64,000 bases of DNA from a virus: positions 1 through 64,000 of IMG/VR virus record IMGVR_UViG_3300043436_004480. One strand, written 5' to 3'. Position numbers and translations under genes: made by a program. A model generated the notes under the pieces. It saw only the letters and a list, made by a program, of their open reading frames with translations, had not been told where the DNA came from and ran no database searches. The stretch's first letter is position 1. Every line of letters starts with the position of its first letter. Shown here piece after piece: positions 1,727 through 21,918 of the stretch.

Positions 1727-2509
1727 TTATGCACCTTTATCAATAGTAGGTTTGATTGCCGATTCGGGATTATCTAATACCGCAGGAGAAAAATATGGAT
1801 TTTTGCACAATATGGCATTACTATCAAATTTCTGTTGTGCTTCCGGTTGCTTTGAAATATAGAAAGTCTCCATTTCTTCGGCAGTATATACCCAGTCCTG
1901 TCGAACACTCATTTTTAAAGCATTGTATTCTGCTTTTACATCACGATTGTTTGCAGCTTCTTCTGAAAACTTAGTTCCATATCTTAGCCACAACTTTAAA
2001 TAGTTCATGTTCATACATTGAACAAGGAACGATCTTATGTCTTTGTGTCCAGATGGGGAATCTTTGATTTCGTACAAATATAAACTTGCATACAATTGAG
2101 CCATTACTGACACAATTTCTTGCTTGTTTATTGGCTTTTTGTACTCTACCGTTTTCTTAATTACATCTGCAAAATCTAACAGTAAGTAATTTAATGTTTT
2201 TGTCCCAGATAAATTTGAGTAAATATTTTTATCTGCTCCGAAAGACGTTGTCCAACTTAAAATTAAAGTTTCAACAAGATCTGTTATTCCTAACAAATCC
2301 ATAAGAATAGAAGAATAATACAGAATGTCTCCGGTTTCTTCTAATCTGTTTATGTAGTCTTTTTTGTCTATTGCTGCCGACAATTCTGGAAGTTCAGAAA
2401 TAATACCAACAAATGCGTGATATATTTCTTGATTTTCAGTAGTTTTGTTCCAAGTGACTTTACAGTTTGCAGTATAAGGTGCAAAAATTGGAGTTACGTT
2501 TATATCCAT
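1727..2509 (-). CDS. MazG-like nucleotide pyrophosphohydrolase, 260 aa
   Basis: Residues 30-72 carry the MazG superfamily signature: E39-L-P-E42 followed by E58-T-G-D61 within a helical segment ending in ILYYSSILMDLLG. This ExxE...ExxD arrangement binds the magnesium used to hydrolyse nucleoside triphosphates to monophosphates plus pyrophosphate. The remaining 190 residues are helical and unassigned, making it longer than a minimal MazG domain (about 100 residues). Possible roles are cleaning non-canonical dNTPs, dUTP removal beside ThyA and UNG, or lowering (p)ppGpp; the sequence does not decide. It overlaps the UNG gene by 1 bp. Confidence 0.65.
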   Translation of the reverse strand: MDINVTPIFAPYTANCKVTWNKTTENQEIYHAFVGIISELPELSAAIDKKDYINRLEETGDILYYSSILMDLLGITDLVETLILSWTTSFGADKNIYSNLSGTKTLNYLLLDFADVIKKTVEYKKPINKQEIVSVMAQLYASLYLYEIKDSPSGHKDIRSFLVQCMNMNYLKLWLRYGTKFSEEAANNRDVKAEYNALKMSVRQDWVYTAEEMETFYISKQPEAQQKFDSNAILCKNPYFSPAVLDNPESAIKPTIDKGA

Positions 2510-3207
2510 TACCAGATTATTTCCGTTTGGTTTGTTAGTTTGAGAGCAACATTTATTTGCTGGAAGATTTGCTCATTCTCCCATTTTCTTTCTTCTCTTG
2601 CTGCAAATGCAGGATGTTCAGTTTCTTTTACCATATGTACAGAAGACACATATCTGCTGAAAGTTTTTGCTTTGGAACCAATAAAACAGAATAGTAATTT
2701 TCTATCTGTTGTACGAGCGCAAAGTTCTTTTATTACGTTACGAGTAAAATATTCCCAACCTTTTTCATAATGCGAACTAGATTCTTTTTCTCTTACTGTA
2801 AGTACAGAATTTAACAAGAATACTCCTTGATCTACCCAAGACTGCAAAGTTAAGTCTTTTGAAGCAGTTTTACTAGCATTCATTAAAATTTTTAATGTTA
2901 CAGGAGGTCTATGTTTGCTAAGTTGTGAAGCAAATGCCCTTCCCATTGCGTGTTCATTTGGATATGGATCTTGCCCCACTAAGATAACTTTTACTTTTTC
3001 TGGGGGTAAATCTCTGAACATTTTAAATGTATCAGAACTTTTCGGGTAAATATTAAATTTAGATCTTTCTTCTGCTAAAAAAGTTTTTAAAGCTTTCATA
3101 TCTCTAGATTCTAAATATTTACCAATAAGATTAGCCCATTCGTTTCCTAAAAAACGAATGGTGCTATCTTGAGGTTTATATGCAAACAGTTCTAGCTGGC
3201 TGGACAT
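2509..3207 (-). CDS. ung: Uracil-DNA glycosylase, family 1-like
   Basis: The enzyme removes uracil from DNA to start base excision repair. The water-activating loop is GQDPYP (residues 78-83, Asp80), followed by LLNSVLT (131-137) and a minor-groove loop containing HP (198-199) in TEHPAFAA. These match family 1 UNG with small deviations (GQDPYH and HPSPLS are usual). The length of 232 residues is normal. It overlaps the macro-like gene upstream by 16 bp. UNG is a known core gene of many crAss-like phages. The codons for PEKVKV carry an exact copy of the dispersed 11-mer. Confidence 0.92.
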   Translation of the reverse strand: MSSQLELFAYKPQDSTIRFLGNEWANLIGKYLESRDMKALKTFLAEERSKFNIYPKSSDTFKMFRDLPPEKVKVILVGQDPYPNEHAMGRAFASQLSKHRPPVTLKILMNASKTASKDLTLQSWVDQGVFLLNSVLTVREKESSSHYEKGWEYFTRNVIKELCARTTDRKLLFCFIGSKAKTFSRYVSSVHMVKETEHPAFAAREERKWENEQIFQQINVALKLTNQTEIIW

Positions 3208-3749
3208 ATGCGCTCTAACATTTCTTCTTTAAATTCAGAAGGAAATATAACAAATTGCTTTATTACTTCTCTCAAACTTTCTTCCATCATAGAAATATAC
3301 TTAAATAAAGTATTTACTATATAGTCAGCCGAAAGTTCAGATAATCCGGTTCCTATTGCAGAAAGAATATAAGTTTGATCAGAATGCATATTTATTAGTA
3401 CTGATTGAAGAAAGTGTTCAATACTTTTTTCAACTATAAACTTCTGGTCAACATCTATATTATTTCTTGTCAAACTCTTTGTAGGCAATGCATAAGTTTG
3501 TCCTGTAAAGCCTTCCGCAATTCCTATCTTTGCTCCTAAATGTTCATGTGCAAACTTTGCTGCACCTGCTCCATGAATACCTTCAATATTAGAACCGAAT
3601 ACAAAAATTAAATTTTTGTTGTTTCGATAATCTTCTACTGATGGCCATTTTTTGAAAATGTAAAATCCAGAATGACCTTTTTCATCTAATGGAGAAGCTA
3701 ATCCTCTGCTAACAAGCAGACTTAATTTAGAATTCGTTTTCATCTTCAT
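3192..3749 (-). CDS. Macro-domain-like phage protein (A1S_2505 type)
   Basis: Residues about 48-95 contain FVFGSNIEGIHGAGAAKFA, then GAKIGIAEGFTGQTYALPTKS. This is typical of a phage/bacterial family annotated as macro-domain-like, and SAIGTGLS further on resembles its second glycine-rich loop. Macro domains bind ADP-ribose or related nucleotides, so counteracting host NAD or ADP-ribose signalling is a possible role (inference). An ATG at 3743 is an alternative start. It overlaps both neighbours. Confidence 0.65.
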   Translation of the reverse strand: MKMKTNSKLSLLVSRGLASPLDEKGHSGFYIFKKWPSVEDYRNNKNLIFVFGSNIEGIHGAGAAKFAHEHLGAKIGIAEGFTGQTYALPTKSLTRNNIDVDQKFIVEKSIEHFLQSVLINMHSDQTYILSAIGTGLSELSADYIVNTLFKYISMMEESLREVIKQFVIFPSEFKEEMLERICPAS

Positions 3750-5151
3750 TAGGTTTTGGTTCTTCTTTAATTTCAGAAAGATCCTTCATATATACAGTTT
3801 CTGCATAGTTTGCTTCAAGATTGAAGTCTATTACAAATCCGTTATAATCACCTTTCTGCTCTTTCATTTTGTAATATTCTTCCATCGAAGAATCTATTAC
3901 ATCATTTTGCTTTTCACCACCAACAAATCTTATTGGAGTAACCGGATTATATTTTCCAGAAGTTTGAATGTGGAAAATTGTGCTTTCAAAGCTTACAAAA
4001 CTCAGAAATTCCTGCGGATTTACTTCTTTTCCTTCGACTTCTCCTAGGAAATAAGAAATTTTTTTCTGCACTTCATCTTCTTCTTGTAAATAAGAAGTTT
4101 TCAAGTATTCTTCTTTTACAGAATCAAAAAGTCTTTTTATGAATACATTTTTAATATCTTCTAAGTTTTCTTCTTGTTCAAGAATAAATTGTCTTATCAA
4201 ATGTTGATAAAAACAAAGTTGCAAGATGTCAGTATCACCTTTGTTTGATTCTAAATAATCTACTGCGGAACTATAATTAGTTTTGTAATCACTTATTGAA
4301 AACAAAACTTGTCTAAGACCATCTTGTTCAGTCAATGTAAAATCAACTCTTAGATTGTCAATAGTTCCTTTTATCTCTTTACAAACTATCTGCAATTCTC
4401 TAAAGAAAACTGAAAAAGTAAATACTTTTCCTAATTCTGTTTCTCTAATGCTTAGTTTTACAGTATCTCCTTCGTTGTATAGATACTTGTAGAAGTTATG
4501 ATTTTTCAAATTATCAATACTTCTCTGCAAAGTTTGTCTTACTTCTGGAGTAACTAACAATTCAGTTTCCGGATTGTAAGTAACCAAAGCTTTGAAAAAC
4601 TCTTTATTTTCCAAAATGTCCAATTGCTCTAAAAAGAAATCAGCATTTTTATACCTTTTACTTTGTGTAGCAAGGAATGCACGAGTTACAGAAGCAGAGT
4701 TTTTCCAAACTTCGTTGTCTTTATTGTAATATCCTGCTTTGAATTCCCTAAGAAATTCTTCTTTGTAATTATCTGGATCTAAATCTGGATATAAATTTTT
4801 GTATTTTTCAACATACAAGTTTCTTTCTTCACGAGCAACCGCATTTATGAAAATACCGGTCTGTGTTGATTCATCTGGGCCTGTTGCAGATAGAATTTTT
4901 ACTTTGTCTGGATCTGCCATATACATATGGAAAGCGTTTCCAAATGCAACAGCTTTCTTTTGTTGTTCAGGTTCTAAAATACCTTCTTCTTCTGCTTCTT
5001 GTCTTGCTAGTTCAAGACCTTTGTAGTATTGATATTTTTGAGGAGAACCTCCTAAATATATAGATAATAATCTTAAGTCGGAAAAACTGACTTGAGAAAT
5101 TGATCTATATTCTTCTGTTGGTAATTGTTTGCAGAACGTGGACTTGTCCAT
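3727..5151 (-). CDS. PD-(D/E)XK superfamily nuclease, 474 aa
   Basis: The N-terminus (YRSISQVSFSDLRLLSIYLGG, then KAVAFGNAFHMYM) matches the entry and metal-histidine region of RecB/YqaJ-like exonucleases. The core follows with an Asp in GTIDNLRVDF and the D-x-K element in SISDYKT, then a helix with Gln/Tyr (LQLCFYQHLI). Such enzymes resect or degrade DNA ends in recombination and repair. The start overlaps the resolvase gene by 79 bp, needed to keep the conserved N-terminus. Neighbours (UNG, RusA-like) support a repair and recombination module. Confidence 0.75.
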   Translation of the reverse strand: MDKSTFCKQLPTEEYRSISQVSFSDLRLLSIYLGGSPQKYQYYKGLELARQEAEEEGILEPEQQKKAVAFGNAFHMYMADPDKVKILSATGPDESTQTGIFINAVAREERNLYVEKYKNLYPDLDPDNYKEEFLREFKAGYYNKDNEVWKNSASVTRAFLATQSKRYKNADFFLEQLDILENKEFFKALVTYNPETELLVTPEVRQTLQRSIDNLKNHNFYKYLYNEGDTVKLSIRETELGKVFTFSVFFRELQIVCKEIKGTIDNLRVDFTLTEQDGLRQVLFSISDYKTNYSSAVDYLESNKGDTDILQLCFYQHLIRQFILEQEENLEDIKNVFIKRLFDSVKEEYLKTSYLQEEDEVQKKISYFLGEVEGKEVNPQEFLSFVSFESTIFHIQTSGKYNPVTPIRFVGGEKQNDVIDSSMEEYYKMKEQKGDYNGFVIDFNLEANYAETVYMKDLSEIKEEPKPNEDENEF

Positions 5152-5558
5152 ATTATTACTGATGCTTTAGTTTTTGATATTTCGTAACCTTCAAATACTG
5201 GAACGATAGTAGTTGAATCATCATCTTCTATCCATTCGAATTTTGTTAGTAAATCTAAAAGTAAATGGCAAACATTATGATAATCAAATCTTATCTTACT
5301 CGGTCTTATAAAATACATATGCAAATTATAAGGTTTTTCAAGATTTTCAATTGATTTCAGAAACTTGTTTTTAAAAGTAACAAACGAAAGTTCATTTCTT
5401 TCTGCCCAATCTTTAACTCTTGAAGAAGAGTGTATGATTGCTCTACCTTTTATTACTTTTATTCCTTTTGTGTTTTTTAGTGAAGGTATATTCCCAAAAA
5501 AAACAAAGAAAGTGGGCTTGTTACACCCACTTTCCAGATTTTCATTACTTTGCATCAC
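5073..5558 (-). CDS. RusA-like Holliday junction resolvase
   Basis: The fold signature is GNIPSLKN at residues 22-29, a serine/tryptophan strand (SSRVKDWAE), FDYHNVCHLLLDLL at 91-104 with Asp92 and Asp102, and EDDDS at 111-115. In RusA three conserved aspartates in these places bind magnesium and cut four-way DNA junctions. Length 161 is slightly above the usual 120-140. The stop lies inside the next gene's 5' end. A role in resolving replication intermediates before packaging is likely. Confidence 0.78.
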   Translation of the reverse strand: MMQSNENLESGCNKPTFFVFFGNIPSLKNTKGIKVIKGRAIIHSSSRVKDWAERNELSFVTFKNKFLKSIENLEKPYNLHMYFIRPSKIRFDYHNVCHLLLDLLTKFEWIEDDDSTTIVPVFEGYEISKTKASVIIWTSPRSANNYQQKNIDQFLKSVFPT

Positions 5559-7332
5559 TAGGATTCAAAAGTTTATCGAATTCATCAAGATTCATAAGCT
5601 TTTCAGCATTATTTTCTGTAATTGGACTATCCGATCTTGAGAATTGAATATTCGTTTTATTTACAGACTTTCCTTGTTCATCAAAGTCTCTTGTTGTAAC
5701 TCTATAAACTATGTAGTTTATAAGTTTATGACGCATTTTCTTAACAGAAGCAATCTTCTTCTGTATTATTTCCTCTTCTTCTTTCGAAACGAGCAAAACA
5801 GCTTCTTCTTCAACTGCTTTATCTTTCTTGGCTTTTTTCTTTTTTGTCTGACCACTTTCTTCTGGTTTTGTTGTAGTATTGTCTTCTGCAACTTCCTGTT
5901 TAGCTTCTTCTCTTACTGCAACTTTTCTAGCAGATGCTTTTTTAGAAACAGTTTTTACAGCTTCTTCTTTTTGTTTTGCAACAGATTCAGGAAGACTCAT
6001 CAACTGTGGAACAGTACCAACACTTGTGTAGAAACGTAAAATTACATCCCTTACAACTCTGAACTTTTCTTGTTCTCCTTCTTCCGCTAACTTTTCTAAT
6101 TTCTCAGAAAGTTCAGAATAGCTAAGTTTAGCTAGTTCAGGATTCTGCTGTTCTACTTTTTCTTTTTCAAACTGTGCATCTAGTGTATTTACAGAAGTAA
6201 GTAGTGCAATTCTTTCTGTTTCTGGCAAAGAATCATAAGAGATTCTATCTCTTAGAACTTTTATAGGATAATACCTACAAACTCTGATTTTTCCACCATC
6301 TTGAGGAACTGCAACTGCATCTTCTGGAGAAAATGCAACCATTAGTAACACATTACCAGAAAAGTTATTTGCGTAGTTATAAGTACCTACGTGTAATCCT
6401 CTTGAACAAGTATTATTAGGATTCGTATCACAATGTTTTCTTTCTATTACCGCAGGAACAAAAAGACTAATATTCATTGATTTTGAATGAGAATCTACAA
6501 ACGAATGAAGTCTGTTTTCTCTATCCAATACCAATTTTTTCATTACTGTAAGTTCGTCAGGATTTGCAGGAACCACTTCAATTTTTCCTCCAACATAATT
6601 AAACTTAACAGTATTCAGATCTGTATTTTCCTCCGAAAGTCTTCTGATGATATTATCTTCTTCTGACAATCCTTGTTTAGAAGTCACTCGTTTGTAACCT
6701 ATCATAAATCCATTATCCATTACAGAAAATAAATTTTCCATAGTAGCATACTTCAGCAAACCTTTTGCTGCAATAGGATCTGGATTTAATGCAACTTTTC
6801 TTAAAAATTCAAGAAGTCCTTGCTTTGAAGAAACTGTACTGAATTTGTGAAACAGTTCCGTAGGAACAGAAATGTTTGTGTTTTTTATTACACAGACTTT
6901 TGTATCTTTTACAGAAATTACTTCAAAGTTGTTTGCAAAGAAAGCAGTTTTTGTAAATTCTCTGCTCTGATCATCTAAAGAGGATAAATCAAACGGTTTT
7001 TCCTCAGTTAAATACTGAATTACAAACGTCTTATTTTTAAATTCTTCTGAATTTTTTACTTTGCCATCAGAAACAACTGTTTCTTTTACTACTTCTCCTA
7101 CAACATCATCTTTTTTGATAAACATATCAATCACTTGACTATGCAAGCTTTGATTTTTAACATTTGTGATTGCAGACTTTACAAGTTCTTTTACCTGATC
7201 ACGAAGTTCTTTCTCTGCAATTATTTTGCTTGCAGTAAAAGTTTCGTTATTCAACGAATAGGAAATTATTAAGGTTTTTCCAACCTGTTTCCATCCGGCA
7301 ATTATGCCTAATGACTTTTGTTTCTTTGCCAT
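5545..7332 (-). CDS. rIIB: rIIB-like protein, 595 aa
   Basis: Residues about 300-350 read CSRGLHVGTYNYA, VLLMVAFSPEDAVAVP, then KIRVCRYYPIKVL, the hallmark of T4 rIIB-like proteins. It is nearly twice the length of T4 rIIB. The C-terminal third is a charged linker rich in Lys, Glu and Ala (EEAKQEVAED, KKKKAKKDKAVEEE) ending in a small globular tail. It follows the rIIA-like gene by 1 bp. T4 rII proteins act at the membrane in exclusion and lysis-inhibition phenotypes; their biochemical role is uncertain, and the same holds here. Confidence 0.75.
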   Translation of the reverse strand: MAKKQKSLGIIAGWKQVGKTLIISYSLNNETFTASKIIAEKELRDQVKELVKSAITNVKNQSLHSQVIDMFIKKDDVVGEVVKETVVSDGKVKNSEEFKNKTFVIQYLTEEKPFDLSSLDDQSREFTKTAFFANNFEVISVKDTKVCVIKNTNISVPTELFHKFSTVSSKQGLLEFLRKVALNPDPIAAKGLLKYATMENLFSVMDNGFMIGYKRVTSKQGLSEEDNIIRRLSEENTDLNTVKFNYVGGKIEVVPANPDELTVMKKLVLDRENRLHSFVDSHSKSMNISLFVPAVIERKHCDTNPNNTCSRGLHVGTYNYANNFSGNVLLMVAFSPEDAVAVPQDGGKIRVCRYYPIKVLRDRISYDSLPETERIALLTSVNTLDAQFEKEKVEQQNPELAKLSYSELSEKLEKLAEEGEQEKFRVVRDVILRFYTSVGTVPQLMSLPESVAKQKEEAVKTVSKKASARKVAVREEAKQEVAEDNTTTKPEESGQTKKKKAKKDKAVEEEAVLLVSKEEEEIIQKKIASVKKMRHKLINYIVYRVTTRDFDEQGKSVNKTNIQFSRSDSPITENNAEKLMNLDEFDKLLNPSDAK

Positions 7333-7333: not shown

Positions 7334-10300
7334 TTACAAAGTAGGGATTAAATTTGAACGGTGAAGATTTTTGAATACTCCTGTTGTATTATGAGCATTC
7401 TGCGAAAAGGCAGTTTTTCTTCTTTGAAATATGCTTGAATCTAAATTCGACAGATTATAAAAGAAATCATCTCTTTTTACAACTCTGTTTGCATACTTAT
7501 TAAAGTCTCCTTCTTTTAGTGATTTTAAATATTTTTGCTTTGCTTCAAGTCCTTTGAAATATACAACCTTTATCAAAGAACCATCTGTATAATTTCTCTT
7601 AATCATTTTATCTGTAAATTCATAATCGTTTGTTAATGAACAATTATAAATATCAGAATTAGAAAAACCTACTGATTTGGTTTCAATCAAAGGAAACAGT
7701 AGTTTTTTATTAAGATCAATATACGCATTTTTTAAGTTAAAAGTGCATTCTACACTTAGATTTTTTAAGAATTCTTCAACTTTTGCTTCATAGCTTGATG
7801 CGTTTCCTAATGTTTTGTAAACAGAAGCACCATACATTGATCTTTTCTTTGCATTAAGAGATATGTTTTCACAATAGAATTCAAAAACATGAATCTTTTC
7901 TGCACCTTCTGTTTGTGGAAACAAAGGATTATCTTTGTGATTTATTTTTATTATTGATTTTTGACTGTTGTAATCAATAAGTTTTGAATATTCAGGAAGA
8001 AAATTAGAAACATGTCTTTCAGAAAGAACAAATTTCTGTTTTCTGTGAATATATCTTTCGTTAGTAAGTGCTTTTGTAAATTCTTTTTCTTGTATACTAC
8101 CGTCCATCATAATAAAAGATGACAGAGTAGATAAATCACTATTTATATGCTTGTAAGTTTTGTCTATCATCTTGCATAATTTATGCAGATAGAGATATGC
8201 ATCATAGTGAATTTCTGTAACAGACAAAGCATATTTTAATTCAGTGAGAGAATTTTCAAATTCTTCTTCTGTCAGACAAATTCCTCCTAATGCTGTATAT
8301 ACATTATAAGCATTTGCAATTTCTAAGAAAAACAACTTCATTTTTCCTGAAAGTTCTGCTAAATCATTTACATTGTCGTTTATTGCAGGTCGATATGAAT
8401 ATCTAGAATGTCCATTTTTTGATATTCTATTCATATCTAAATACAAGTCACCAAGTTCTTTTGTGATTATCGCATCCGGATAAATCAGTTCTTCATTTAT
8501 GAAATCTAAGTTAGGACAGAAACTTGTTCTGACTTTACTATGATAGCCTCCATAATAATCAGATTTTGCAGGATCTTTAAAATACATATAGTCTATATGT
8601 AAATTAAAACTAGAAACTAACTTCTTCAAATTAGTTACATTTCCATATAACCAATTAGATGAAAATCTATCTGGAGTATAAGGATCATAAATAAGAACAT
8701 GCAGAGTTTCTAATAGTTTTTTATTATACTGATGTTTTTCAACTACGTTATGATAAGGCTGAGTAAACAGGACTTCATTTTTGAAATTGCTGTGATTCAT
8801 TCCGTTATTCAGATATATTTTCGAATCTGAATATTTTTCATTAGGAACAGCACCAATTATTTTCTGATCTCTTACCGGATATACAAAATCATTATGATAC
8901 TGCAATCTAGGAACTGTTTTTCTTAACTTCTCAAAAGGTCTTGCTATAAACTTTGAGAAATTAGAATAATCTCTAATCAATTCATCATGTTTAAGAAAAG
9001 TATACAACTGCATCGTAAAGAACGGATGCACAGTAAATATAAATTTATCAAAATGAAAAAGATTTTTTGCAAATTCTGCTTCTTCTGTTTCAAGATAATA
9101 AATCTGTTCTTCGTTTAACACAAATATTGAATTAAAGAAATCTTTATAGTAAGAAGAACTATCTTTGTAACCACCACTAAGTGATATAGATTCTTTATAA
9201 TGAACGAATTGATAACTTGTATATACAAACTGAAATGTATTTACTAAGTCTTTAACTCGTTCAACTTCTTCTGGTAAACAGTAAAGAAAGTAGTTAGGTT
9301 CTTTTTCTGCTAGAAAAGCTTTTTTAGTAAAATCTTTATCATCTACTTTTTTTATAAAGGTTTCAAGAGTTTCTACAAAGGAAGAGTTTTTTTTGAGTGC
9401 AATCGAACTCTGAGTAGGAGTATCTAAGTAAAGACATTTTACATTAGTTTTCTCTACCGGAATGATTTCTTTTGCTTCTCTTTTCTTTCTTTCTTTGATA
9501 AACTCTAGTCTTGCTGCTTCTAAAGAAGATTTTTCTAATCTTTGTTTTTCTGCTTCTATTTCTAGAGCTTCTTTTACTTTTAACTTGAGTTGAGAGAAAG
9601 CTGTCTCCAGATTATTCTTTTCTTCTTCTGGGGTGTTTACTATTCCATAAGTATTACAGATTTTATCTATATACTTTTTAGAATAGAATCTATTTTGAGT
9701 ATTTACAAGAAGTGCAAAAGCACTCATGTAATTTTTAAGTGCATACTTATTTACATAAAATTTTCTTTTTAGCCTTAACAAATCAGAATTTGTTACTGCT
9801 CTGTCTCTAAGTATGTTTGCTAAATCTTTTCTAGCTTCTGATGGATCAGAAGAAATAGTAGGATATTGACTTATTTGTTGATTAAACGAACCTATTAAAT
9901 CTTGTTCAATTGATTCGTAAAAATCAGATCTGTTTACAGTAGAAAACGAAAAATTTTGAGTTTCTATATAACTTAAAGAGAGAACGTCACTCAACAAATA
10001 CGGAGTTCTGAATAATATTTCAGGAAGAAGATTTAAATAACAAACAAATAAGTCTGCAAGCTTTGAGTCTTTTAAGATTTCATATGTGTCTAACTTTTTA
10101 TTAAAAAGTTCTACAAAAGACTTTTTGCTGTTAAAAGCATAATTCCTTTCTAGAAATCCTTTTCTGAAAACTCCTGCTTGAACAGTTTGCAAATTGTTTC
10201 TTGAAAAACAAGAATGTATTGCACTTCTGAGATATTCAAATTGCTGTTTCCAACTTCCGATGAAAGATAATTCTTTATCATCAATTATTGAAATTCCAGA

Positions 10301-12082: not shown

Positions 12083-13040
12083 TAGGATCGTTTAGTAAAG
12101 TATTGAGAATTTGTGCAGCAGAAAACATATCATATGTTTCTATGAAGTCGGATATGTCTTTTTCTTCTCCTGGAAGAATTATATATGGCCATCCAGTTTC
12201 TGCTGATCTGTCTTTTGCAAACTGAATGCCTCTTTCGTCGTTATCGTAAAATATTACTGGTCTTTTGAACCTTGATTTTATATATTCTACGAACTTTGGG
12301 TGATATTTTGCATTTTCTGAAAGTGGAGATGCAGAAAAGTAAGAAAGTTCATGTAAACACATTACATCTTTTAAACTTTTAGTAATTAATATTACATCTC
12401 CTGTTTCAGGAAGTTGCCTGTAACCCATTATTTTTGAGTTTGTATTTTGGATGAATTTTGGTTCACCATATGGAAAGTATATTTTATAATGAGTTTCTCC
12501 TAGATAATATGCATATCCCGGATTTGTTTCATCATTTGTATATACAAGTCTTCCATCTACCCAAAGTCTATCTATTGCATAAACTTTGAATTTTTTTAAA
12601 GTCTTTGAAGAAATCTGATAACGCTCGTACCAAAAGTTTTTATCAACTCTCGAAAATAATCTTTCTTTTACTACAATGTTTTTCTCCGTCCCAGAAAAAG
12701 AAGAAAGATTATTTACAGGCGATGCTTTTACTTCTCTCCTTTCGCCAATATCAGTTTTTCCTTCATAATCAATATTAAAATCTCTAGCCACTATCTTTAA
12801 AGCCATGTTAAAATCGCAACTGTATAAAGTTTGCACTATGTCAAAACAATCATAAAACTGTTTTGTTCCATGATCATACATTACAAGTTTTCCTTTATTA
12901 TTATAGAAACTGCAACTTGGCTGAGTGTCTTTTCTAAAAGGATTTAATATTGTTTTTTTCGTTACTGAAATGCCATAAGTTTCAAATACATCTTCTTGTC
13001 TTATTTTGGAAAGTATAAAGTTCTTTGTTAGTTGTGACAT
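12051..13040 (-). CDS. DnaG-type primase, 329 aa
   Basis: The N-terminus (SKIRQEDVFETYGI, PFRKDTQPSCSFY, YDHGTKQFYDCFDIV) corresponds to the template-binding domain of DnaG-like primases, but the CHC2 zinc cysteines are not preserved as a set. A TOPRIM domain follows, with VILITKSLKDVMCLHE and VIFYDNDERGI carrying the acidic metal-binding residues. It makes RNA primers for the family B polymerase. I use the ATG at 13040 rather than the TTG two codons upstream. A TATATTTG lies just before the ATG, suggesting a leaderless transcript. Confidence 0.85.
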   Translation of the reverse strand: MSQLTKNFILSKIRQEDVFETYGISVTKKTILNPFRKDTQPSCSFYNNKGKLVMYDHGTKQFYDCFDIVQTLYSCDFNMALKIVARDFNIDYEGKTDIGERREVKASPVNNLSSFSGTEKNIVVKERLFSRVDKNFWYERYQISSKTLKKFKVYAIDRLWVDGRLVYTNDETNPGYAYYLGETHYKIYFPYGEPKFIQNTNSKIMGYRQLPETGDVILITKSLKDVMCLHELSYFSASPLSENAKYHPKFVEYIKSRFKRPVIFYDNDERGIQFAKDRSAETGWPYIILPGEEKDISDFIETYDMFSAAQILNTLLNDPNENGYSNLPF

Positions 13041-13043
13041 TTT

Positions 13044-13051
13044 CAAATATA
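13044..13051 (-). promoter_or_regulatory. Possible leaderless promoter -7 element (TATATTTG) for primase
   Basis: TATATTTG fits the Bacteroidetes -7 box and ends 3 bp before the primase ATG, immediately after a terminator. Transcription would begin at or near the start codon. No clear -33 TTG was found at the right distance, so this is tentative. Confidence 0.4.
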
Positions 13052-14513: not shown

Positions 14514-14543
14514 CAAATATAGAACTTTTTTTTGGTTCTACAA
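14514..14543 (-). promoter_or_regulatory. Host-type promoter for the 193-aa gene
   Basis: On the - strand TTG, exactly 19 bp, then TATATTTG. The gene begins about 43 bp downstream, giving a short leader. This is one of the clearest promoters in the window. Confidence 0.78.
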
Positions 14544-15254
14544 TGGAAGTTCGTAATATTCTTTGATTTTTTTTGAGATCCAAAGACAGTCGTTTGGCAC
14601 GTCTATCAAATCTTTAGTTGGATCGGCATCATCGGTTAGCAAACCCGGAGGTACTTTGGCACCTGTACGTTTTGCATAACTTTTGAAAACATAAGTAGGA
14701 CGACCATCAGCAGTTTCTTCGCCTCTTGTTGCATAAAGAACAATAGGAAAATACGCTTCTAATTTTCCAGAAAATTTCTTTCCTTCGGTAGTCATTCTTA
14801 TTTCTCTAACTCCTTCGGTTTCATCTGTAATCATTTCTACGTGACAAGTCACATAAATGACTACATCTTTTAAGTTACGCATTGCATCGAGAAGTTTGTA
14901 ATAATCTTCTCCTAGTTGTCCATAGATTTCAAAGCCTTTATATGCTTTTCTATCATAGATTTCTTGCTTCTGCGCCCATAAACTGAAAGAATCAAAGAAA
15001 ATTGTTTTGATACCATTCTTATCTAACTTTTCTTGAGTTAAGAAAGAAAGCATATCTGATTTTCCTTGTGCATCAAAACCAGTTTTTACAAACTTGAATT
15101 TTGATTTGAACGGAAATGCTTTTTGTTCTGAATTTATTATTAGAGTAGTTTCAGGATCTAGATTTCTTGCAGCCATAGTTTTACCTCGACCAGAAGAACC
15201 TATAATTGCAACCATAATTGCAGGATGTCTGTCTTTTTTTATTTCATCGGACAT
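14538..15254 (-). CDS. RecA-fold/AAA ATPase, Sak4-like, 238 aa
   Basis: Walker A is GSSGRGKT (residues 19-26), Walker B is IKTIFFDSFS near 90, and a conserved V-x-C-H (VIYVTCHVEM) follows. The C-terminal half includes RMTTEGKKFSG. This is the layout of phage RecA-core NTPases of the Sak4 group, which assist single-strand annealing and recombination. It lies between the helicase and the 193-residue gene in the replication operon. A plain AAA ATPase label is the fallback. Confidence 0.72.
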   Translation of the reverse strand: MSDEIKKDRHPAIMVAIIGSSGRGKTMAARNLDPETTLIINSEQKAFPFKSKFKFVKTGFDAQGKSDMLSFLTQEKLDKNGIKTIFFDSFSLWAQKQEIYDRKAYKGFEIYGQLGEDYYKLLDAMRNLKDVVIYVTCHVEMITDETEGVREIRMTTEGKKFSGKLEAYFPIVLYATRGEETADGRPTYVFKSYAKRTGAKVPPGLLTDDADPTKDLIDVPNDCLWISKKIKEYYELPL

Positions 15255-15266: not shown

Positions 15267-16481
15267 TTAATACGGATCTCCCTCTTGATATTCAGTAAAG
15301 TCCGAGGGAGGAAGTTCCCTTACTGAATCTTTTCTTTTTTCTGGGAGAGCGTTTCTACCTGCTAAAACGTCTTCTAATAAATTTTTTGCCTTATCGTTAT
15401 TAGAAAATAAATTCTCGATTGGCGGTAATGGAGCGAATATTCCAGTTTCTCCAACATAAAGCATAGATCTGTCACCTAGTCCTCTACCATCTCTGTCTTT
15501 AAGTTTGTAAACTGATCTATATCTATCTCCTAATATGGAAATGTTGTAACCTTTATATTCTGCAAGATGGTATCTTGCAGGACTAAACAAAGCTAAAACA
15601 ACATTTGCATCCTTCTGCATGTTTTTACTATCTGAAAAATCATCCAGTACAGGCCATAATTCATCTTGTTTGCTTACTGTAAAACTATTTTTCGATTTTA
15701 ATTGTTGTACTGCTGCTATTGCAACATCATATTTATTTCTAAATTGAATAAAATCACCGGATAATTCATCCATCTGATCTTTTGCAAAATTTCCGTTTTT
15801 TCTTTTTACAAGACTTATGTGATCATAAATAATCAAAAGAAACATTGGACGTTTGTTAATCTTATTTACAAAAACTTTTCTTGTAGTATTTTCTTTCAAA
15901 ACATCATCGAAGAAATCTTCTTCAATTTCTTCTAGATGCATATCTAGAAATTTTTGTATTTGTTCTTTTGTTCTTGCTGCATCTTCTGGAATTTCTAGAA
16001 ATTTTACTTTCTCTTGAAGAACTTTAAAAAATGGCTGCAAATTTCTTATGTACTCCAAACCTCTTTCAGTAAGTGGCATATCTGTACTAAGAATTTTCTT
16101 TATATCTACGGGTTTTCTCGTTGTAGGAGTTAAAACACCTTCTCTATAAAGTTTATTTACTGCCAATTTTAGTAATTTTCTTTTCTTTGAAACTTCCATT
16201 GTAAAATACAAGCACATGAAGTTTTTATCTTCTCCATCTACCATATATTCCTCAATTGCATTCATTAAAAAGACATCGTCAACAAAAGAAGTTTTTCCAG
16301 TTCCGGTTTCACCACCGATTAGGTAAAAAGTACCTCTCTCGACTTTTGCAAAATCTGCAAAGTCTAAATTCGTATCAATTCCTGGTCTTTTCCCTTGTCT
16401 CGCAAGTGAAATTTCGCTAGTAATTAAACGAAAGTAATCTTTTTCCTTTTCTTTCTGCTTTTCTTTTTGTTCTTCTGTCAT
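15267..16481 (-). CDS. DnaB-like replicative helicase, 404 aa
   Basis: The RecA-fold core has Walker A GGETGTGKTS (56-65), Walker B FLLIIYDHISL, and a Gln-containing strand AIAAVQQLKSKNS, as in DnaB/gp4 hexameric helicases. A long insertion between Walker A and B (about residues 95-210) and a short N-terminus distinguish it from bacterial DnaB. It unwinds DNA ahead of the phage polymerase and would work with the TOPRIM primase. Its start overlaps the next gene's stop by 4 bp. Confidence 0.82.
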   Translation of the reverse strand: MTEEQKEKQKEKEKDYFRLITSEISLARQGKRPGIDTNLDFADFAKVERGTFYLIGGETGTGKTSFVDDVFLMNAIEEYMVDGEDKNFMCLYFTMEVSKKRKLLKLAVNKLYREGVLTPTTRKPVDIKKILSTDMPLTERGLEYIRNLQPFFKVLQEKVKFLEIPEDAARTKEQIQKFLDMHLEEIEEDFFDDVLKENTTRKVFVNKINKRPMFLLIIYDHISLVKRKNGNFAKDQMDELSGDFIQFRNKYDVAIAAVQQLKSKNSFTVSKQDELWPVLDDFSDSKNMQKDANVVLALFSPARYHLAEYKGYNISILGDRYRSVYKLKDRDGRGLGDRSMLYVGETGIFAPLPPIENLFSNNDKAKNLLEDVLAGRNALPEKRKDSVRELPPSDFTEYQEGDPY

Positions 16482-17224
16482 ATTTGATCAAAGTCTGGTT
16501 GTACCTTGTCAAAGTTAATAAAAGAATTGGTGCTTTGCATCAAAGATTGATAAATATCAATCGCTGACCTAAATCTACCAGATGAAATAAATGCAACAAT
16601 GCCATAAGAAAAGAAACTTTCTTTTGGTTTACTATGCAACTCTTGTTTTTTTATGTAATCTATGGCTTCCATAAGTAACTCGTGAGTTTCTTTGCTGCCT
16701 TCGATTGTAGTGTAATAATATTCGTAAAACTCAGTATCTGTAATTGTCTCTTTGTTTGTATTTTCTTTTGTGAGTTTTCTTATTACAGATCCTTCGTGAT
16801 CGACTTTTATCTGAGATCTTGACGGATAAAGATCTCCTTTTACTTTTATGAAAGACGGATAACGGTTTATTAAATCTAAACCGAAAGTTTTTACTTCTTC
16901 TTTCTTATAAACAGCAGTTATATATTTTTCGTAATCATGCGATATAATGAAATCATTAGTATCTGCATTTTCTGGATCACTACCTATATAACTGATGAAG
17001 CCACGTTCAATAAGTATGCGAATATCTAGTTCAGTTACTGGAGAAACATCAAAATCAATTTCTCCTAGTCTTCCTAGATATTCTGCATACCAAGTTATTG
17101 CGCTAGCTTTTTTATTTCCTCCTTGACCTTTTTCAGTTAATACGTGTAAAAACAGTAACTGATTAGGAGTTATTCGCAAGTCATTCAGTAAAAATTTCAG
17201 ACTTTTGAATTCATTATCTATCAT
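16478..17224 (-). CDS. Hypothetical replication-operon protein, 248 aa
   Basis: Not recognised. It begins with a helical region (FKSLKFLLNDLRITPNQLLFLHVL) that resembles a winged-helix start, and has a second helical half. It is coupled by overlaps to an SF2 helicase upstream and the DnaB-like helicase downstream, so a helicase-loader role is possible but unproven. Confidence 0.7.
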   Translation of the reverse strand: MIDNEFKSLKFLLNDLRITPNQLLFLHVLTEKGQGGNKKASAITWYAEYLGRLGEIDFDVSPVTELDIRILIERGFISYIGSDPENADTNDFIISHDYEKYITAVYKKEEVKTFGLDLINRYPSFIKVKGDLYPSRSQIKVDHEGSVIRKLTKENTNKETITDTEFYEYYYTTIEGSKETHELLMEAIDYIKKQELHSKPKESFFSYGIVAFISSGRFRSAIDIYQSLMQSTNSFINFDKVQPDFDQI

Positions 17225-18506
17225 TTATAGTCAATCGTTCTATTTTTGTGATTGTGTCCTCTAACGATAAATATGTTGCAGGTGCAGAATCTTTTTGCGC
17301 TTTTTCTAGCCAACTTTCCTCTACTGTTGAAGTGTAAACTAAATTCACAAACATTGCAGTTTTATAAGTTCCGTCTTTTCTAAGACGGCAAACCCGGCCT
17401 TTTCTTTGAACATTACTTGTTGCACTTGAATTATAAGCTGCTGCTATTCCAAGATATAATTTGTCGTCAGAAAATCCTTCGTTCAGTGCCGATGCAGACA
17501 ACATTACGTCTGTCTGTCCAGATAAAAATTCAGCTAATGCTGCATCTTTTTCCTTTTTTGTTAATTTGCTGTGATAAATACTGCATTTACGGAAAGTTTG
17601 AAGTTTAACTTTCAAATTTTCTATAAATTCAATAGACTGAGAGAATATAATAGTTTTACAGTTAGTTTCTGTGAGTATTCTAACTATTATATCTTCTTTT
17701 GCTTTGCTCTGCTGTAAAAGATCAGATCTTTTCTTCATAAAAGCCAAAAAACAAGAGGAACTTGTTTTTATTGCTTCTATCGGAAGATTTTTCTTTTTTG
17801 CCCATTTTGCTGCAACTGCCGGAGTATTACAAGCAGATGTTGCAGCAGCAAAATCGTTATCAAAAACTTTTAAGTTTTTTGGTATTTGCTCAGAATAATA
17901 ATCATATTGATTCTTCTGCTCGTGAGTCAGATTCATCCTTAGATTTATTTCCTGATAAGGTGCTACCCAACCATTTCTAACTGCCATTTCCAAACTTATA
18001 GTATATAAGATTGGAGCAAGTTGAGTAAAAGTTGTATGCAAACCATCTAGTCTTTCTGCTGTTGCTGAAAGTCCTAATATAAATTTGTAAGGAACTTCCC
18101 ACATTCTTACGAACTGTCTGCCAATTGCTTCATCAGCATTGCCTCCATAATTGTGAATTTCGTCTGCAATTATAAAGGTATTTTCAGTATCAGTTATTTC
18201 ACCAGCAATTAGTTTATTTACATAAGTGTTTATGATATAAACATTTATATTTTGTCTAAATTGTGGTAAAACAAATTTATCTAAGTCCGCAGTCCAGTTA
18301 ACAAGGTGGTTTGTTTTATTTAAGATAATTGTTATTGGAAGATTTGGATTTTTTGCTCTTGTTCTGTTTATTGCTTTGCAAGCCATTACAGTTTTACCAA
18401 AAGAAGTACAACAAGCAAATGTTCCTCTACCTTTATATGCTCTCCAATAATTATCTAATAAGTAGTCTTGAATCTGATCTCGACTCAATCCATCTATGTT
18501 TTCCAC
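17214..18506 (-). CDS. SF2 (DEAD/SNF2-like) helicase, 430 aa
   Basis: Motif I is CCTSFGKTVM (32-41), motif II ADEIHNYGG (114-122), motif III LGLSATAERLDG, and motif VI NVQRKGRVCRLRKDG near the C-terminus. Motif order and spacing give a complete two-domain SF2 motor. It resembles UvsW-like or SNF2-like phage helicases, which remodel replication forks or recombination intermediates. It overlaps the 248-residue gene and starts 1 bp after the polymerase stop. Confidence 0.85.
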   Translation of the reverse strand: MENIDGLSRDQIQDYLLDNYWRAYKGRGTFACCTSFGKTVMACKAINRTRAKNPNLPITIILNKTNHLVNWTADLDKFVLPQFRQNINVYIINTYVNKLIAGEITDTENTFIIADEIHNYGGNADEAIGRQFVRMWEVPYKFILGLSATAERLDGLHTTFTQLAPILYTISLEMAVRNGWVAPYQEINLRMNLTHEQKNQYDYYSEQIPKNLKVFDNDFAAATSACNTPAVAAKWAKKKNLPIEAIKTSSSCFLAFMKKRSDLLQQSKAKEDIIVRILTETNCKTIIFSQSIEFIENLKVKLQTFRKCSIYHSKLTKKEKDAALAEFLSGQTDVMLSASALNEGFSDDKLYLGIAAAYNSSATSNVQRKGRVCRLRKDGTYKTAMFVNLVYTSTVEESWLEKAQKDSAPATYLSLEDTITKIERLTINDR

Positions 18507-18507: not shown

Positions 18508-20415
18508 TTAAAATAAAGTTAATTGTTGATTTTCAATTTCGTGTGCAAACTTACTACATTCGTTAATATAAAATTTGTAGTCAATATCTACATCTTTTAT
18601 TGTAACTCCACGTAAGTCGTTTGCTAGTGTTAACAATGATTTTGCTATTACAAAACTCTCTGCTCCTGTGTCTTTATTACGTTTCATTAAATAACCACCT
18701 TTTTTAGATACGAAATACCTATTTGTTTTTGGTAGTTTTTCTATTTTAACGTCTCCATTCTGAACAATTTTGAATATAAATTCAAATTTAGAATCTGCTT
18801 TTTGAGAAGAACAGAAATCATACAAATCTGTATGCTCCATAATAGTTTTTCGGTAATCTATTCCTTCTGTAAAGTATTTAACTAAAGCATAAGGAATAAT
18901 CGGCATATCGAAACCTTTTTCTATTGGCTTTTCATAAAGAAATCCGCCTTTAGTTTTAATAGAGAATTTTCCATCTGCTTTTGGTTCCATTGCAACATAA
19001 CTGTTCATTGCTTTACAAACAAATTTGGTATATAGAGTTTCCTCCAATTCCATTTTTGTTGTATTTTCCCAATCAGTTCCGATTTTATCGTACTCTTCTT
19101 TTTTGTCAACTGGAACCAAAGTAAGAATACCATCGGTATTTGCAGAAATAGTTTTGAATCCGTGAATCTGATTTTGTTCTGCAAGCATCAAAATTCCTAA
19201 CTGCCCAGATAATGTAACAGTTAAAAATGCAGTCGGATCATATAAAGGAGAAGGAGGAGAAGTTTTTGATCTTCCCATATTAAATTTACCTACTGCTGCG
19301 TTAATAACAATTTTATTAACTTCTGCTGGTAATTTCATACCTTTAGCTTTGTATTCTAATCTTTCTACTGTTTGATCTTTTAGAATTTGATTAAATTCAG
19401 GACTTAAATGGTAAGGTCTTATAAGCCATTCATTACACAAACTTGGATAGTAAGATTTTACATCTTTGTCTGATAAATAATGAGTTTTTGTTGAATAATG
19501 AATTTTAGGATAATCTACTGTATGAATACCGCCAATTCCTAAAATATACTCAACATTATCAATCATTACTCTTTCTTTCATTACTCCTTTTTCAAGCTTA
19601 AAACTTTTATTACGAAGTTCTTCAAGAAATTTTTGTAATTGTGGAGTCTCAAACTTTACAAATGGTAAAATGCAATCTTTAAGATGAACAACTTTGTTTT
19701 CTCTAAAGTTTTTTCTGAATTCATGCTTATTATCTCCAGTTTTTTCACAATAAAGCTTAGTAATAAGCATATCTGCTACTGTACTACGAGAAGAAGACAT
19801 AACCGGTAAGTTATATCTGTTTTTTACGTTTTCTCTAAGCTTGATTTCAGGAAAAAAGTATTTAGTTAGTTCATGAGTTATTAAAACATCATTAAAACAA
19901 TAATCTCTAACTAAATCTGCTTGTTCTCTTGTAAGAATTGCTTCTGGAGAAAATGGTAAATCTTGAATAAGTGGCATTTTTAAATTTACTGCACAACTTT
20001 TCAAAGATTTACCAATTTTATCCAATCTACCTAAAGTCATCAAGTCAATTGTATTACAATGCAACTTGTCAATCTTATGATAGATTTTTTGTTCTCTTAA
20101 CTCTCGAATAAGGTTATTTGAAAAAGCATTCATTTTCTTAGGACTTGGGTTTTTCATTCCTAAGAACTTGTTCAGCATTACATCATCATAAGAAATGTTG
20201 TTGTAGCCGATCAGATAATCTTTTCCTTTTTCTGGGCCTGCTTCGAGAGATAATAAAAATTCTTCTAATTCTTGGGCAGAAGTTTTTGTTTCTTCTCTAC
20301 CTTCTTCTGAAACAAACAGTTCAAAATAAAACTTGTTATCTGTGTTGTATTCTTGAAAGCATACTAGAAAGTAATTAAGATAACTTTCTATATCATAAAC
20401 GAATTTTCTTGCCAT
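18508..20415 (-). CDS. DNA polymerase, family B, 635 aa
   Basis: The 3'-5' exonuclease motifs are YDIES (residues 6-10), YNNISYDD (about 89-96) and YCFNDVL. The polymerase motifs are DVKSYYPS (motif A), KIVINAAVGKFN (motif B, unusual in lacking the usual NxxYG tyrosine) and SANTDGI (motif C, with Thr-Asp where many have Asp-Thr-Asp). It is short for family B, without an obvious thumb extension or TPR1 terminal-protein insertion. It replicates the phage genome with the neighbouring helicase and primase. It has its own host-type promoter. Confidence 0.9.
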   Translation of the reverse strand: MARKFVYDIESYLNYFLVCFQEYNTDNKFYFELFVSEEGREETKTSAQELEEFLLSLEAGPEKGKDYLIGYNNISYDDVMLNKFLGMKNPSPKKMNAFSNNLIRELREQKIYHKIDKLHCNTIDLMTLGRLDKIGKSLKSCAVNLKMPLIQDLPFSPEAILTREQADLVRDYCFNDVLITHELTKYFFPEIKLRENVKNRYNLPVMSSSRSTVADMLITKLYCEKTGDNKHEFRKNFRENKVVHLKDCILPFVKFETPQLQKFLEELRNKSFKLEKGVMKERVMIDNVEYILGIGGIHTVDYPKIHYSTKTHYLSDKDVKSYYPSLCNEWLIRPYHLSPEFNQILKDQTVERLEYKAKGMKLPAEVNKIVINAAVGKFNMGRSKTSPPSPLYDPTAFLTVTLSGQLGILMLAEQNQIHGFKTISANTDGILTLVPVDKKEEYDKIGTDWENTTKMELEETLYTKFVCKAMNSYVAMEPKADGKFSIKTKGGFLYEKPIEKGFDMPIIPYALVKYFTEGIDYRKTIMEHTDLYDFCSSQKADSKFEFIFKIVQNGDVKIEKLPKTNRYFVSKKGGYLMKRNKDTGAESFVIAKSLLTLANDLRGVTIKDVDIDYKFYINECSKFAHEIENQQLTLF

Positions 20416-20441
20416 AAATTAAAAGATGATGTTCAGAGTAT

Positions 20442-20472: not shown

Positions 20473-21097
20473 CTAAATTTTCACTTTTTGATTTCTTGAT
20501 ACTTACTGCTGCTGGGTTTAGCTGGGATAAACAGAATTTAGATTCATACTTTACATTAGAACGTATATCTAAATCTGCATGACCTTCTGTTGAGTAACGG
20601 AATGCAAAGAATTGATAATTACCAAACTGATCAAGTTTTACAGTTTTATCTTTTCTATCACGAACAAGCTGTTTGCTTTCTTTTTGACGAAGTAAATTCG
20701 CATCTCCTCGGTTTATTCTCTCTAGTTCTTCTCTTGTCAAGATAGGAATACTAGAAATTATTTTTTGAATGCGAGCATTTAGAGGAATAAACTTTTCAGA
20801 ACAAAGTTGTAAATCTTGATTCTGCATATAGAAGTCATATACATCGTCTTCTATACTAATTGTAATCTTTCTACTTTCTACTGGATGTTTTTTAACAAGC
20901 ATCATTTCACCACATAAAGAGTCGTGAAATTTATCTTGATCTTTTACAACTTCATAGTAACTTCTTTCGATGTCTTGTTGCAAAATAGCAATTTTCTTGC
21001 TAGATAGATCTTTGTGAGTAGTAATTGCGCTGAAATAAACAGCAAGGTCACTTACTTTCTCGATTAATTTTGGCGCAAACGCTTTTAACTTTTCCAT
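20462..21097 (-). CDS. Hypothetical protein, 211 aa
   Basis: Unrecognised. Mostly helical N-terminus, a charged stretch (RQKESKQLVRDRKDKTVK) near residue 150 and a short beta-rich C-terminus. It lies between the MazZ-like gene and the polymerase, so it probably belongs to the replication cluster. Confidence 0.72.
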   Translation of the reverse strand: MEKLKAFAPKLIEKVSDLAVYFSAITTHKDLSSKKIAILQQDIERSYYEVVKDQDKFHDSLCGEMMLVKKHPVESRKITISIEDDVYDFYMQNQDLQLCSEKFIPLNARIQKIISSIPILTREELERINRGDANLLRQKESKQLVRDRKDKTVKLDQFGNYQFFAFRYSTEGHADLDIRSNVKYESKFCLSQLNPAAVSIKKSKSENLVEN

Positions 21098-21129
21098 TTT
21101 GGTCTGAGGTTTTGGAAACTAATTTTAAT

Positions 21130-21918
21130 TTACTGTTCTGCTAATATTTCATCAACAGATTGTGGTACTGAACGCAACTTTTTAATTGTACTGTTTGTAT
21201 TGCAATGATATTCTAAGAACATACAATTACAAAGTCCGTGTGAAATGTGAGTATTTCCACTATCTTTGTCGTGAATTTCTCCACATAAATACTTTTCTAA
21301 ATGATTTATCAAAGAGTTTATGATTTGATGTGGATCCATTTGTTTTTTCCAGTTATTAGCTGAATATTTTTTTGCTCCTTCTACCAAACATTCTGCAAAT
21401 TCTGGAAGAACACTACAAAAGAGACTATGATCCACTTTTGAACTGTTGTCTCGCATTGCTTCATTAGGAAGCAAATGTTTAGAATTTTTCTCGTATTTCT
21501 TTAGTTTTTCTATTCCTATATCAAATACATACTCTTTATCTTTTTCAGATAAACCAATAAGAAAAAAAGCAACTGCTGTTTGCATACAACAGTTCATAAT
21601 ACTATCAACATGTCTGTTTTCTGGACTGCACGTTTTAAAGTATTCATAGGAAGCTATTAAAACTTCTTCTTCTTTTGTAGTTGCAAAATAATACAGATTT
21701 TTAAGAAAATAAGAATAAACTAATTTTAAAAATATAGGTTCTATTAGAAACAAAGAGTTTTTCTCAGCGAGAAAATCTTTTAATAGATAATCCCTCATGT
21801 GTGAAAACTGAACTTCAAAATCACCATGAGTCGGATTATATATTATGTGTTTTACAGAAATTATATCGTGAAGAAATTCAGGATTTTCTGTAAGTTGCAT
21901 ACCTTCTTGATTTAACAT
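21130..21918 (-). CDS. dATP/dGTP diphosphohydrolase-like protein (DUF5664/MazZ type), 262 aa
   Basis: The second half (about residues 165-245) carries EGAKKYSANNWKK, then INHLEKYLCGE, then DKDSGNTHISHGLCN. This is the order of the DUF5664 family: KY..NW, H...GE, D..SG..H..H. Characterised members (MazZ) hydrolyse dGTP or dATP to the monophosphate and belong to Z-genome synthesis in some phages. The first half is unassigned. No PurZ-like gene is visible in this window. A simpler nucleotide-pool role is also possible. Confidence 0.7.
   Translation of the reverse strand: MLNQEGMQLTENPEFLHDIISVKHIIYNPTHGDFEVQFSHMRDYLLKDFLAEKNSLFLIEPIFLKLVYSYFLKNLYYFATTKEEEVLIASYEYFKTCSPENRHVDSIMNCCMQTAVAFFLIGLSEKDKEYVFDIGIEKLKKYEKNSKHLLPNEAMRDNSSKVDHSLFCSVLPEFAECLVEGAKKYSANNWKKQMDPHQIINSLINHLEKYLCGEIHDKDSGNTHISHGLCNCMFLEYHCNTNSTIKKLRSVPQSVDEILAEQ

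Follow-up and report, generated by a model that had tools for sequence, protein, structure and literature searches.

Two different hydrolase genes flank the replication block of a divergent crAss-like phage with apparently canonical DNA

The replication block and its flanking hydrolase genes

The first 64,000 bases of the viral record IMGVR_UViG_3300043436_004480 (93,744 bases in all; these 64,000 bases are referred to here as the window) contain a block of DNA replication and repair genes flanked by genes of two different deoxynucleoside triphosphate (dNTP) hydrolase families, both on the minus strand: a MazG-type nucleoside triphosphate (NTP) pyrophosphohydrolase gene at 1727-2509 and a gene for a DUF5664 protein at 21130-21918. 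An earlier note on the window had recognized the two families and located both genes correctly; it had also placed ThyA and uracil-DNA glycosylase in the interval 1727-21918, and both enzymes are indeed encoded, but ThyA lies outside that interval. The remaining 29.7 kb of the record were read as well and their open reading frames (ORFs) listed. We interpret these genes as a module that serves replication and the nucleotide pool in a divergent crAss-like phage with canonical DNA, in which the hydrolases would keep the pool in order (probability roughly 0.6).

The MazG-type gene adjoins ung (2509-3207, minus strand); base 2509 belongs both to the stop of ung and to the start of its neighbour. 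The ung product (232 aa, family 1 UNG type) exceeds the cut-off of NF003592 (168.6 vs 162 bits), matches UNG chains in PDB (best E 9e-28) and contains the sequences GQDPY and HPA, which we take to be UNG motifs. The record ends divide the thymidylate synthase gene thyA: the part for the N-terminus lies at window 2-250 (minus strand; PF00303, E 8.4e-25) and the remainder at the opposite end (L003:15702-16742, minus strand; TIGR03284, 239.7 bits vs a cut-off of 108.35). In this latter part ~40 residues seem to be inserted past the catalytic stretch, ahead of the C-terminal part: the family and PDB matches of ThyA are broken into two or three pieces (about 7-182 and 218-341).

The block itself, likewise on the minus strand, encodes a RusA-like Holliday junction resolvase (5073-5558; phrog_1682, E 2.8e-12; 31% identity to Cellulophaga phage phi14:2), a DNA primase (12051-13046; phrog_12622, E 2.6e-40; 28% to phi14:2), a Sak4-like single-stranded DNA annealing protein (14538-15254; phrog_2872, E 5.8e-29; 30% to phi14:2), a DnaB-like replicative helicase (15267-16481; PF03796, E 1.2e-10; 26% to phi14:2), a DNA helicase of superfamily 2 (SF2) type (17214-18506; phrog_16, E 1.4e-29; 25% to a SNF2-family helicase of phi14:2, E 2.5e-5) and a family-B DNA polymerase, PolB (18508-20415; phrog_1252 "DNA polymerase", E 8.7e-136; several of its full-length relatives are annotated as DNA polymerase B).

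The MazG-type hydrolase

The MazG-type protein (260 aa) is a member of a subfamily of phage MazG proteins that carry an internal insert. As a single sequence, it matches phrog_229, "MazG-like pyrophosphatase" (E 1.8e-11), and remains under the cut-off of the Pfam family MazG, PF03819 (E 0.095, 13.4 bits vs 22). Four phage relatives were found with tblastn, and an alignment based on them retrieved 51 loci in viral contigs; scans of viral contigs with single sequences had retrieved one short locus for TerL and none for the two hydrolases, whereas scans with alignments found many. The window protein, the four tblastn relatives and 21 of the 51 loci, picked for near full-length matches (L191, L195, L201, L203, L205, L207 and L221 match over long stretches too and were left out), were combined in an alignment of 26 sequences, all of which match phrog_229.

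Fourteen columns are invariant in this alignment: H31, E39, E42, E57, E58, G60, D61, K118, Y123, N169, K172, L173, R176 and R189. Note that E57, E58, G60 and D61 are part of the peptide pattern by which most relatives were retrieved and were thus partly selected for. The acidic metal-binding residues (ExxE ... EExxD; E39, E42, E57, E58 and D61) are intact in the window protein, as are the nine other invariant residues. The insert common to the subfamily follows the first helices, precedes the C-terminal N..KL..R signature and carries the invariant Lys118 and Tyr123. The window protein shares the invariant residues with the phrog_229 pyrophosphatases; it differs by a C-terminal tail past residue 206, outside the match. 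A profile made from the alignment matched the MazG chain 3crc in PDB (E 1.6e-8), presumably the E. coli enzyme. When the MazG and DUF5664 sets were compared profile to profile, no similarity emerged, and the MazG ORF has no match to PF08761 (dUTPase_2) at E<=1. An AlphaFold2 model of the MazG ORF made without an alignment is all helical with a mean pLDDT (predicted local distance difference test) of 40.1 and therefore unreliable; it was discarded together with the single-sequence model of the DUF5664 protein (mean pLDDT 38.8).

MazG of E. coli has been tied to (p)ppGpp (reported in PMC6850273), and the window hydrolases could accordingly be imagined to remove alarmones or nucleotides of defence signalling. 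We consider this very improbable: the cyanophage MazG neither binds nor cleaves (p)ppGpp according to the same source, and both genes are placed in a block for DNA replication and nucleotide metabolism.

The DUF5664 protein

The second hydrolase gene encodes a protein of 262 aa that matches PF18909 (dGTP_diPhyd_N, i.e., DUF5664, the N-terminal domain of dATP/dGTP diphosphohydrolase) with E 1.3e-17 and 64 bits against a cut-off of 27. The assignment to DUF5664 made in the earlier note is thus backed by a profile search. The match covers residues 153-239 only. PDB contained nothing better than E 0.39 when searched with an alignment of four DUF5664 sequences.

For comparison, 80 IMG/VR loci were fetched, of which one (L117) contained no ORF; the other 79 and six further proteins gave a set of 85, all of them aligned (86 domain rows, the best per protein being kept). 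The window protein has Asn at position 205, where all 84 other aligned domains have Arg. The Asn codon, AAT (21304-21306 on the plus strand), is at least two changes away from any Arg codon, so one misread base would not account for the substitution. The patterns used for scanning bias columns 177-185 and 224-231 of the alignment and leave Arg205 unaffected. Of 22 conserved columns, the window protein keeps 18, the third lowest number among the 85 (after 16 in MazZ of Acinetobacter phage SH-Ab 15497 and 17 in G008).

Furthermore, the domain is preceded by an extension of ~150 residues. In a blastp comparison of residues 1-150 with the other 84 proteins nothing was better than E 0.38, and no PHROG match at E<=1 starts before residue 153. 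The only Pfam match there, to PorV (E 0.14), was judged to be due to chance. A few weak alignments enter residues 90-150 (Roseobacter phages from residue 90, with 22-23% identity, and L100 from residue 101), so the part without any listed match corresponds to about residues 1-89. In at least eight of the 79 relatives, too, the match is preceded by over 100 residues (ORFs over 170 aa being listed).

These features raise the question whether the DUF5664 protein is still a hydrolase. It may have become a protein for nucleotide binding or sensing, a replication scaffold or a counter-defence factor, leaving the MazG-type enzyme as the only active one; the exchange of the otherwise invariant Arg205 by more than one codon change and the extension without recognizable relatives point in this direction. 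On the other side, K161, K184, Y185, W190, H206, E214, D217, H224 and H227 are kept, no role has been assigned to Arg205, and the window's branch is represented by a single sequence. We regard this alternative as unlikely. In a variant of it, to which we give still less credence, loss of Arg205 and acquisition of the extension would have changed the function of the protein (to an altered substrate such as dUTP, to nucleotide sensing or to counter-defence), and the MazG-type enzyme would have taken over the supply of dUMP for ThyA in a phage without dUTPase. Judged from its residues, the activity of the DUF5664 protein is uncertain. The module is of a known kind, with one unexplained sequence change, Asn205.

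No genes for 2-aminoadenine DNA found

MazZ-type enzymes occur together with PurZ in phages that replace adenine by 2-aminoadenine (Z), and the earlier note, which had called the DUF5664 protein MazZ-like and had seen no PurZ, expected the unseen third of the genome to decide between altered bases and mere clearing of the nucleotide pool. We searched the whole record in all six frames for Z-genes and dUTPase; the scans with family libraries covered ORFs other than the large structural ones. There was no match to the PurZ family PF00709 or to the family-A polymerase PF00476 at E<=10, and PurZ and DatZ of phages phiVC8 and SH-Ab 15497 gave no tblastn match at E<=1. Of two DpoZ queries, only that of phiVC8 had a match (E 0.065), judged to be a chance one. 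The controls worked: PF00709 found PurZ in both Z-phages, the PF00476 search recovered its positive control, and tblastn with four proteins per Z-phage found the PurZ, DatZ and DpoZ counterparts across phiVC8 and SH-Ab 15497. The two MazZ candidates of these phages miss each other in tblastn, and this search therefore says nothing about a distant MazZ. In 63 further ORFs, a Pfam scan revealed eight families at E<=1e-3, none of them base-modifying enzymes. Note also that DpoZ is not universal, as all Z-phages except S-2L share a common polymerase type (PMC8342488).

The name MazZ-like is justified insofar as the window protein shares the PF18909 domain with MazZ of SH-Ab 15497, which aligns to the DUF5664 stretch of the record with 31% identity over 75 residues (tblastn, E 2e-6). 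In SH-Ab MazZ, however, DUF5664 stands in tandem with DUF550 (PMC12884076); indeed, PF04447 (DUF550) was found in that protein, which also keeps Arg205, but not in ORF 21130-21918, where no match is listed at E<=1, and the window record has Asn205 and no purZ or datZ match. Closer in this respect is the DUF5664 protein of Arthrobacter phage Wayne, which, as described in PMC12884076, is likewise not fused to DUF550 and hydrolyses dATP, dUTP and dGTP to dNMPs. Wayne has PurZ0 and Z-DNA, whereas no PurZ match was found in the window record; the same source reports that some Arthrobacter phages whose genomes are canonical also have DUF5664-like proteins.

We extended the PF00709 search to 51 related or DUF5664-carrying records: 34 of the 35 DUF5664 loci on contigs of at least 40 kb (L140, with 40,221 bases, was left out) and 17 records of crAss-like or Bacteroidota phages. 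DUF5664 is present in 38 of them (all 34 loci and four of the other 17 records), yet none had a match; many of these records are possibly incomplete. A lone DUF5664 domain is thus no marker of 2-aminoadenine and should not be taken as a sign of Z-DNA, and the association of MazZ-type enzymes with Z-DNA does not carry over to it. A replacement of adenine by Z, in which MazZ-like enzymes would provide a PurZ with dGMP and remove dATP, is hardly credible in spite of the domain shared with SH-Ab MazZ. The gene content speaks very strongly against Z-DNA, and of the two outcomes envisaged in the earlier note the clearing of the pool is the one supported.

A divergent crAss-like phage

The phage can be placed at the order level as a divergent member of Crassvirales on the basis of its genes. 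It encodes proteins matching the crAss tail-ring families PF24228, PF25702 and PF25710 (CrAss_Ring_1, _2 and _3_4), and its TerL, portal (phrog_6547) and capsid match PHROG families of the head-and-packaging category. Among the matches listed, the best for TerL is Cellulophaga phage phi14:2 (29.5%), followed by crAss phages, and the best for PolB is Maribacter phage Panino (31.9%). A giant ORF (L002:7541 to L003:4349) contains the sequence ADYDIDSLF, which we take to be the crAss RNA-polymerase motif and on which our tentative designation of this ORF as RNA polymerase is based. Size and form of the genome (93.7 kb, nearly matching ends) are of the Crassvirales type as well. Megablast of window 1-24000 against phage records gave no match. 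For TerL, eight of nine loci on contigs over 65 kb were used (L079 was left out), and L010 was dropped from the TerL alignment, as the annotated terminase gene of this record (NC_055904, Buhlduvirus) has four in-frame stops under table 11. Stop-codon recoding occurs in some crAss-like phages, and the stops in L010 are consistent with it.

The last 192 bases of the record (L003:16553-16744) nearly repeat the first 192 (window 1-192), with six mismatches, all in the first 65. The genome is therefore probably circular; a circular or circularly permuted genome would show such ends if slightly different strains had gone into the assembly. The mismatches lie inside thyA and suggest strain variation within the assembled population.

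The nearest cultured counterpart that we found, judging by gene content and similarity, is phi14:2 (NC_021806; Crassvirales, Steigviridae). Like the window block, a region of ~30 kb in phi14:2 encodes PolB, DnaB, ThyA, Sak4, primase, uracil-DNA glycosylase (UDG), RusA, an exonuclease, an NTP pyrophosphohydrolase (NTP-PPase), an SF2 helicase and a DUF5664 protein, and in both phages neither trimeric dUTPase nor PurZ was found. ThyA of phi14:2 is labelled ThyX in its record; the profile match is to PF00303. Ribonucleotide reductase (RNR) genes are also present in phi14:2. When 19 proteins of the window phage were compared by tblastn with two stretches of phi14:2, ten matched at E<=1e-3 with 25-37% identity (ThyA, UNG, RusA, primase, Sak4, DnaB, SF2 helicase, PolB, DUF5664 and a phosphoheptose-isomerase-like protein encoded at 41755-42657), and nine, the MazG ORF included, did not.

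The hydrolases of the two phages differ. The DUF5664 protein of phi14:2 is short (109 aa), has no N-terminal extension and, in contrast to that of the window, keeps all 22 conserved columns. Its NTP-PPase has 133 aa and is of cd11542 type by annotation, without a match to phrog_229, the family of the 260-aa enzyme of the window. Nucleotide genes of crAss-like phages include those for thymidylate synthase, dUTPase, UDG and RNR, and PolA and PolB have been exchanged repeatedly (Yutin et al. 2021, PMC7886860). A module of this kind is thus to be expected.

A possible role in dUMP supply

A whole-record search for trimeric dUTPase (PF00692) gave no match at E<=10; PF08761 was looked for in the ORF-level scans only. 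ThyA needs dUMP, and known dUTPase genes are lacking in 26 of the 96 Bacteroidetes species examined in PMC5122711, so that a phage of such a host could need a dUTPase of its own. Hydrolases related to those of the window act on dUTP: besides the Wayne protein, this applies to the cyanophage MazG, which also cleaves dGTP and dCTP and not ppGpp (PMC6850273). Together with the presence of UNG, the mark of a phage that excludes uracil from its DNA, this suggests that dUMP is made by one or both of the hydrolases. Both enzymes would cut dNTPs to dNMPs, and one of them, either the MazG type, which adjoins ung and is near thyA, or the DUF5664 type, would turn dUTP into dUMP. The latter would feed ThyA for dTTP synthesis, and the falling dUTP level would keep uracil out of DNA, with UNG removing what slips in; the hydrolases would in effect replace the missing dUTPase. 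The activities on dGTP and dATP, or dGTP and dCTP, reported for relatives may additionally trim the pool to suit a genome with 32% G+C. That the two hydrolases participate in pool housekeeping at all is likely. The supply of dUMP as their main job is plausible, with the odds slightly against it.

Gene neighbourhoods and gene content provide some evidence for this proposal. In Alteromonas phage PT15-A5, the MazG relative is located two genes ahead of ThyX. Among 18 records compared, ThyA was present in two only, those of the window phage and phi14:2, and both carry DUF5664 and lack dUTPase. The 135 ORFs near DUF5664 genes include four for ThyA and two each for ThyX, RNR and MazG (top 25 of 59 families), and the 133 ORFs near MazG relatives include four for DNMK, two for RNR and one for ThyA (top 25 of 62 families); both counts are weak evidence. 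The first count covers 34 of the 47 dereplicated loci, taken from the top of the list (188 ORFs in all; L125 was used without one ORF of 4 kb), the second to 133 of 140 ORFs (six of L195 and one large ORF of L211 were left out).

Several results weigh against dUMP supply. The cyanophage MazG binds dUTP poorly, with a Km of 3.2 mM vs 0.14 mM for dGTP (PMC6850273). The MazG profile matches MazG chains, and among its 20 PDB matches no chain is named dUTPase; one of the four phage relatives matches PF08761 at E 0.092 only, below threshold. With Arg205 lost and 18 of 22 columns kept, the DUF5664 protein may be inactive or altered. As the NTP-PPase of phi14:2 does not match phrog_229 and the MazG ORF finds no match in the two phi14:2 stretches, the two enzymes are perhaps not orthologous. 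In the statistics, dUTPase is absent from all 12 DUF5664 carriers with ThyA and present in four of the 27 without it, which is not significant (Fisher p 0.29), and some of these 39 carriers are close relatives; furthermore, the tallies rest on ThyA, ThyX (PF02511) having been outside the genome-wide searches. In cr6_1, a DUF5664 gene is located beside a dUTPase gene, and G001 and G006 possess UDG without matches for ThyA, dUTPase or DUF5664, so nothing in the module is obligatory. Overall, dUTPase is present in four of 39 DUF5664 carriers and in six of 13 other records (p 0.01), a difference on which we do not rely, since the records are interdependent and their selection was not uniform.

The same enzymes might instead serve nucleotide recycling, draining the dGTP and dCTP (or dATP and dGTP) that host DNA releases and thereby matching the pool to an A+T-rich phage genome, with any action on dUTP being incidental. 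MazG of cyanophage S-PM2 prefers dGTP and dCTP, and a role of this kind was proposed by its authors (PMC6850273). The low G+C content of the window (32%) and the location of DUF5664 and NTP-PPase genes near RNR genes in Panino and phi14:2 would be in line with it. However, a phage-host contrast in G+C cannot be assumed; Bacteroidota hosts are often A+T-rich too. Recycling alone also leaves the position beside ung and thyA unexplained. We consider it somewhat doubtful as the sole function.

For crAss-like phages that have ThyA and UNG and no dUTPase, housekeeping by the two hydrolases leads to a testable idea: generalist NTP pyrophosphohydrolases may make dUMP. This would matter in view of the 26 of 96 Bacteroidetes species without known dUTPase genes (PMC5122711). 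A literature search found no paper on crAss-like phages with MazG, uracil and thymidylate synthase, and the available part of the Crassvirales review PMC10136315 contains no mention of "pyrophosph", MazG or uracil.

Other genes and RNA elements

Downstream of the replication genes proper, towards ung, two further genes are found on the minus strand, one for a phage non-structural protein of the A1S_2505 family with no function assigned (3192-3749; NF049995, 86.8 bits vs a cut-off of 45) and one for an exonuclease VIII-like protein (3727-5151; phrog_412, a weak match with E 7.9e-4). A large rIIA-like protein of 1582 aa (7334-12082, minus strand) is identified by matches to RII-family PHROGs, the best stretches of which all fall in residues 22-334; for the other ~1250 residues no PHROG was matched at E<=0.01. 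The gene directly after it is rIIB-like (5545-7332).

Two RNA elements are located close together on the minus strand (window 35645-36021): a permuted transfer-messenger RNA (tmRNA; 36021-35809; RF04321, 59.1 bits vs gathering threshold 47) and, 74 bases on, a Hatchet self-cleaving ribozyme (35734-35645; RF02678, 61.4 bits vs gathering threshold 51). ARAGORN also calls a tmRNA at this locus, with the tag GKSVPMFSRVAVAA, and by eye a terminator-like hairpin with a T run can be seen between the two elements. The pair looks unusual; a literature search found no paper on a Hatchet ribozyme with a tmRNA in a phage, and one scan of viral contigs with a strict Hatchet-ribozyme pattern found no copy.

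Finally, a protein of 672 aa with no function assigned (25074-27092, minus strand; phrog_1735, 751 bits) matches 500 phage records. The 25 listed are 24 Klebsiella phages and one Escherichia phage, in which the identity is 44-45% over 99% of the length, above that of the listed TerL (29.5%) or PolB (31.9%) matches.

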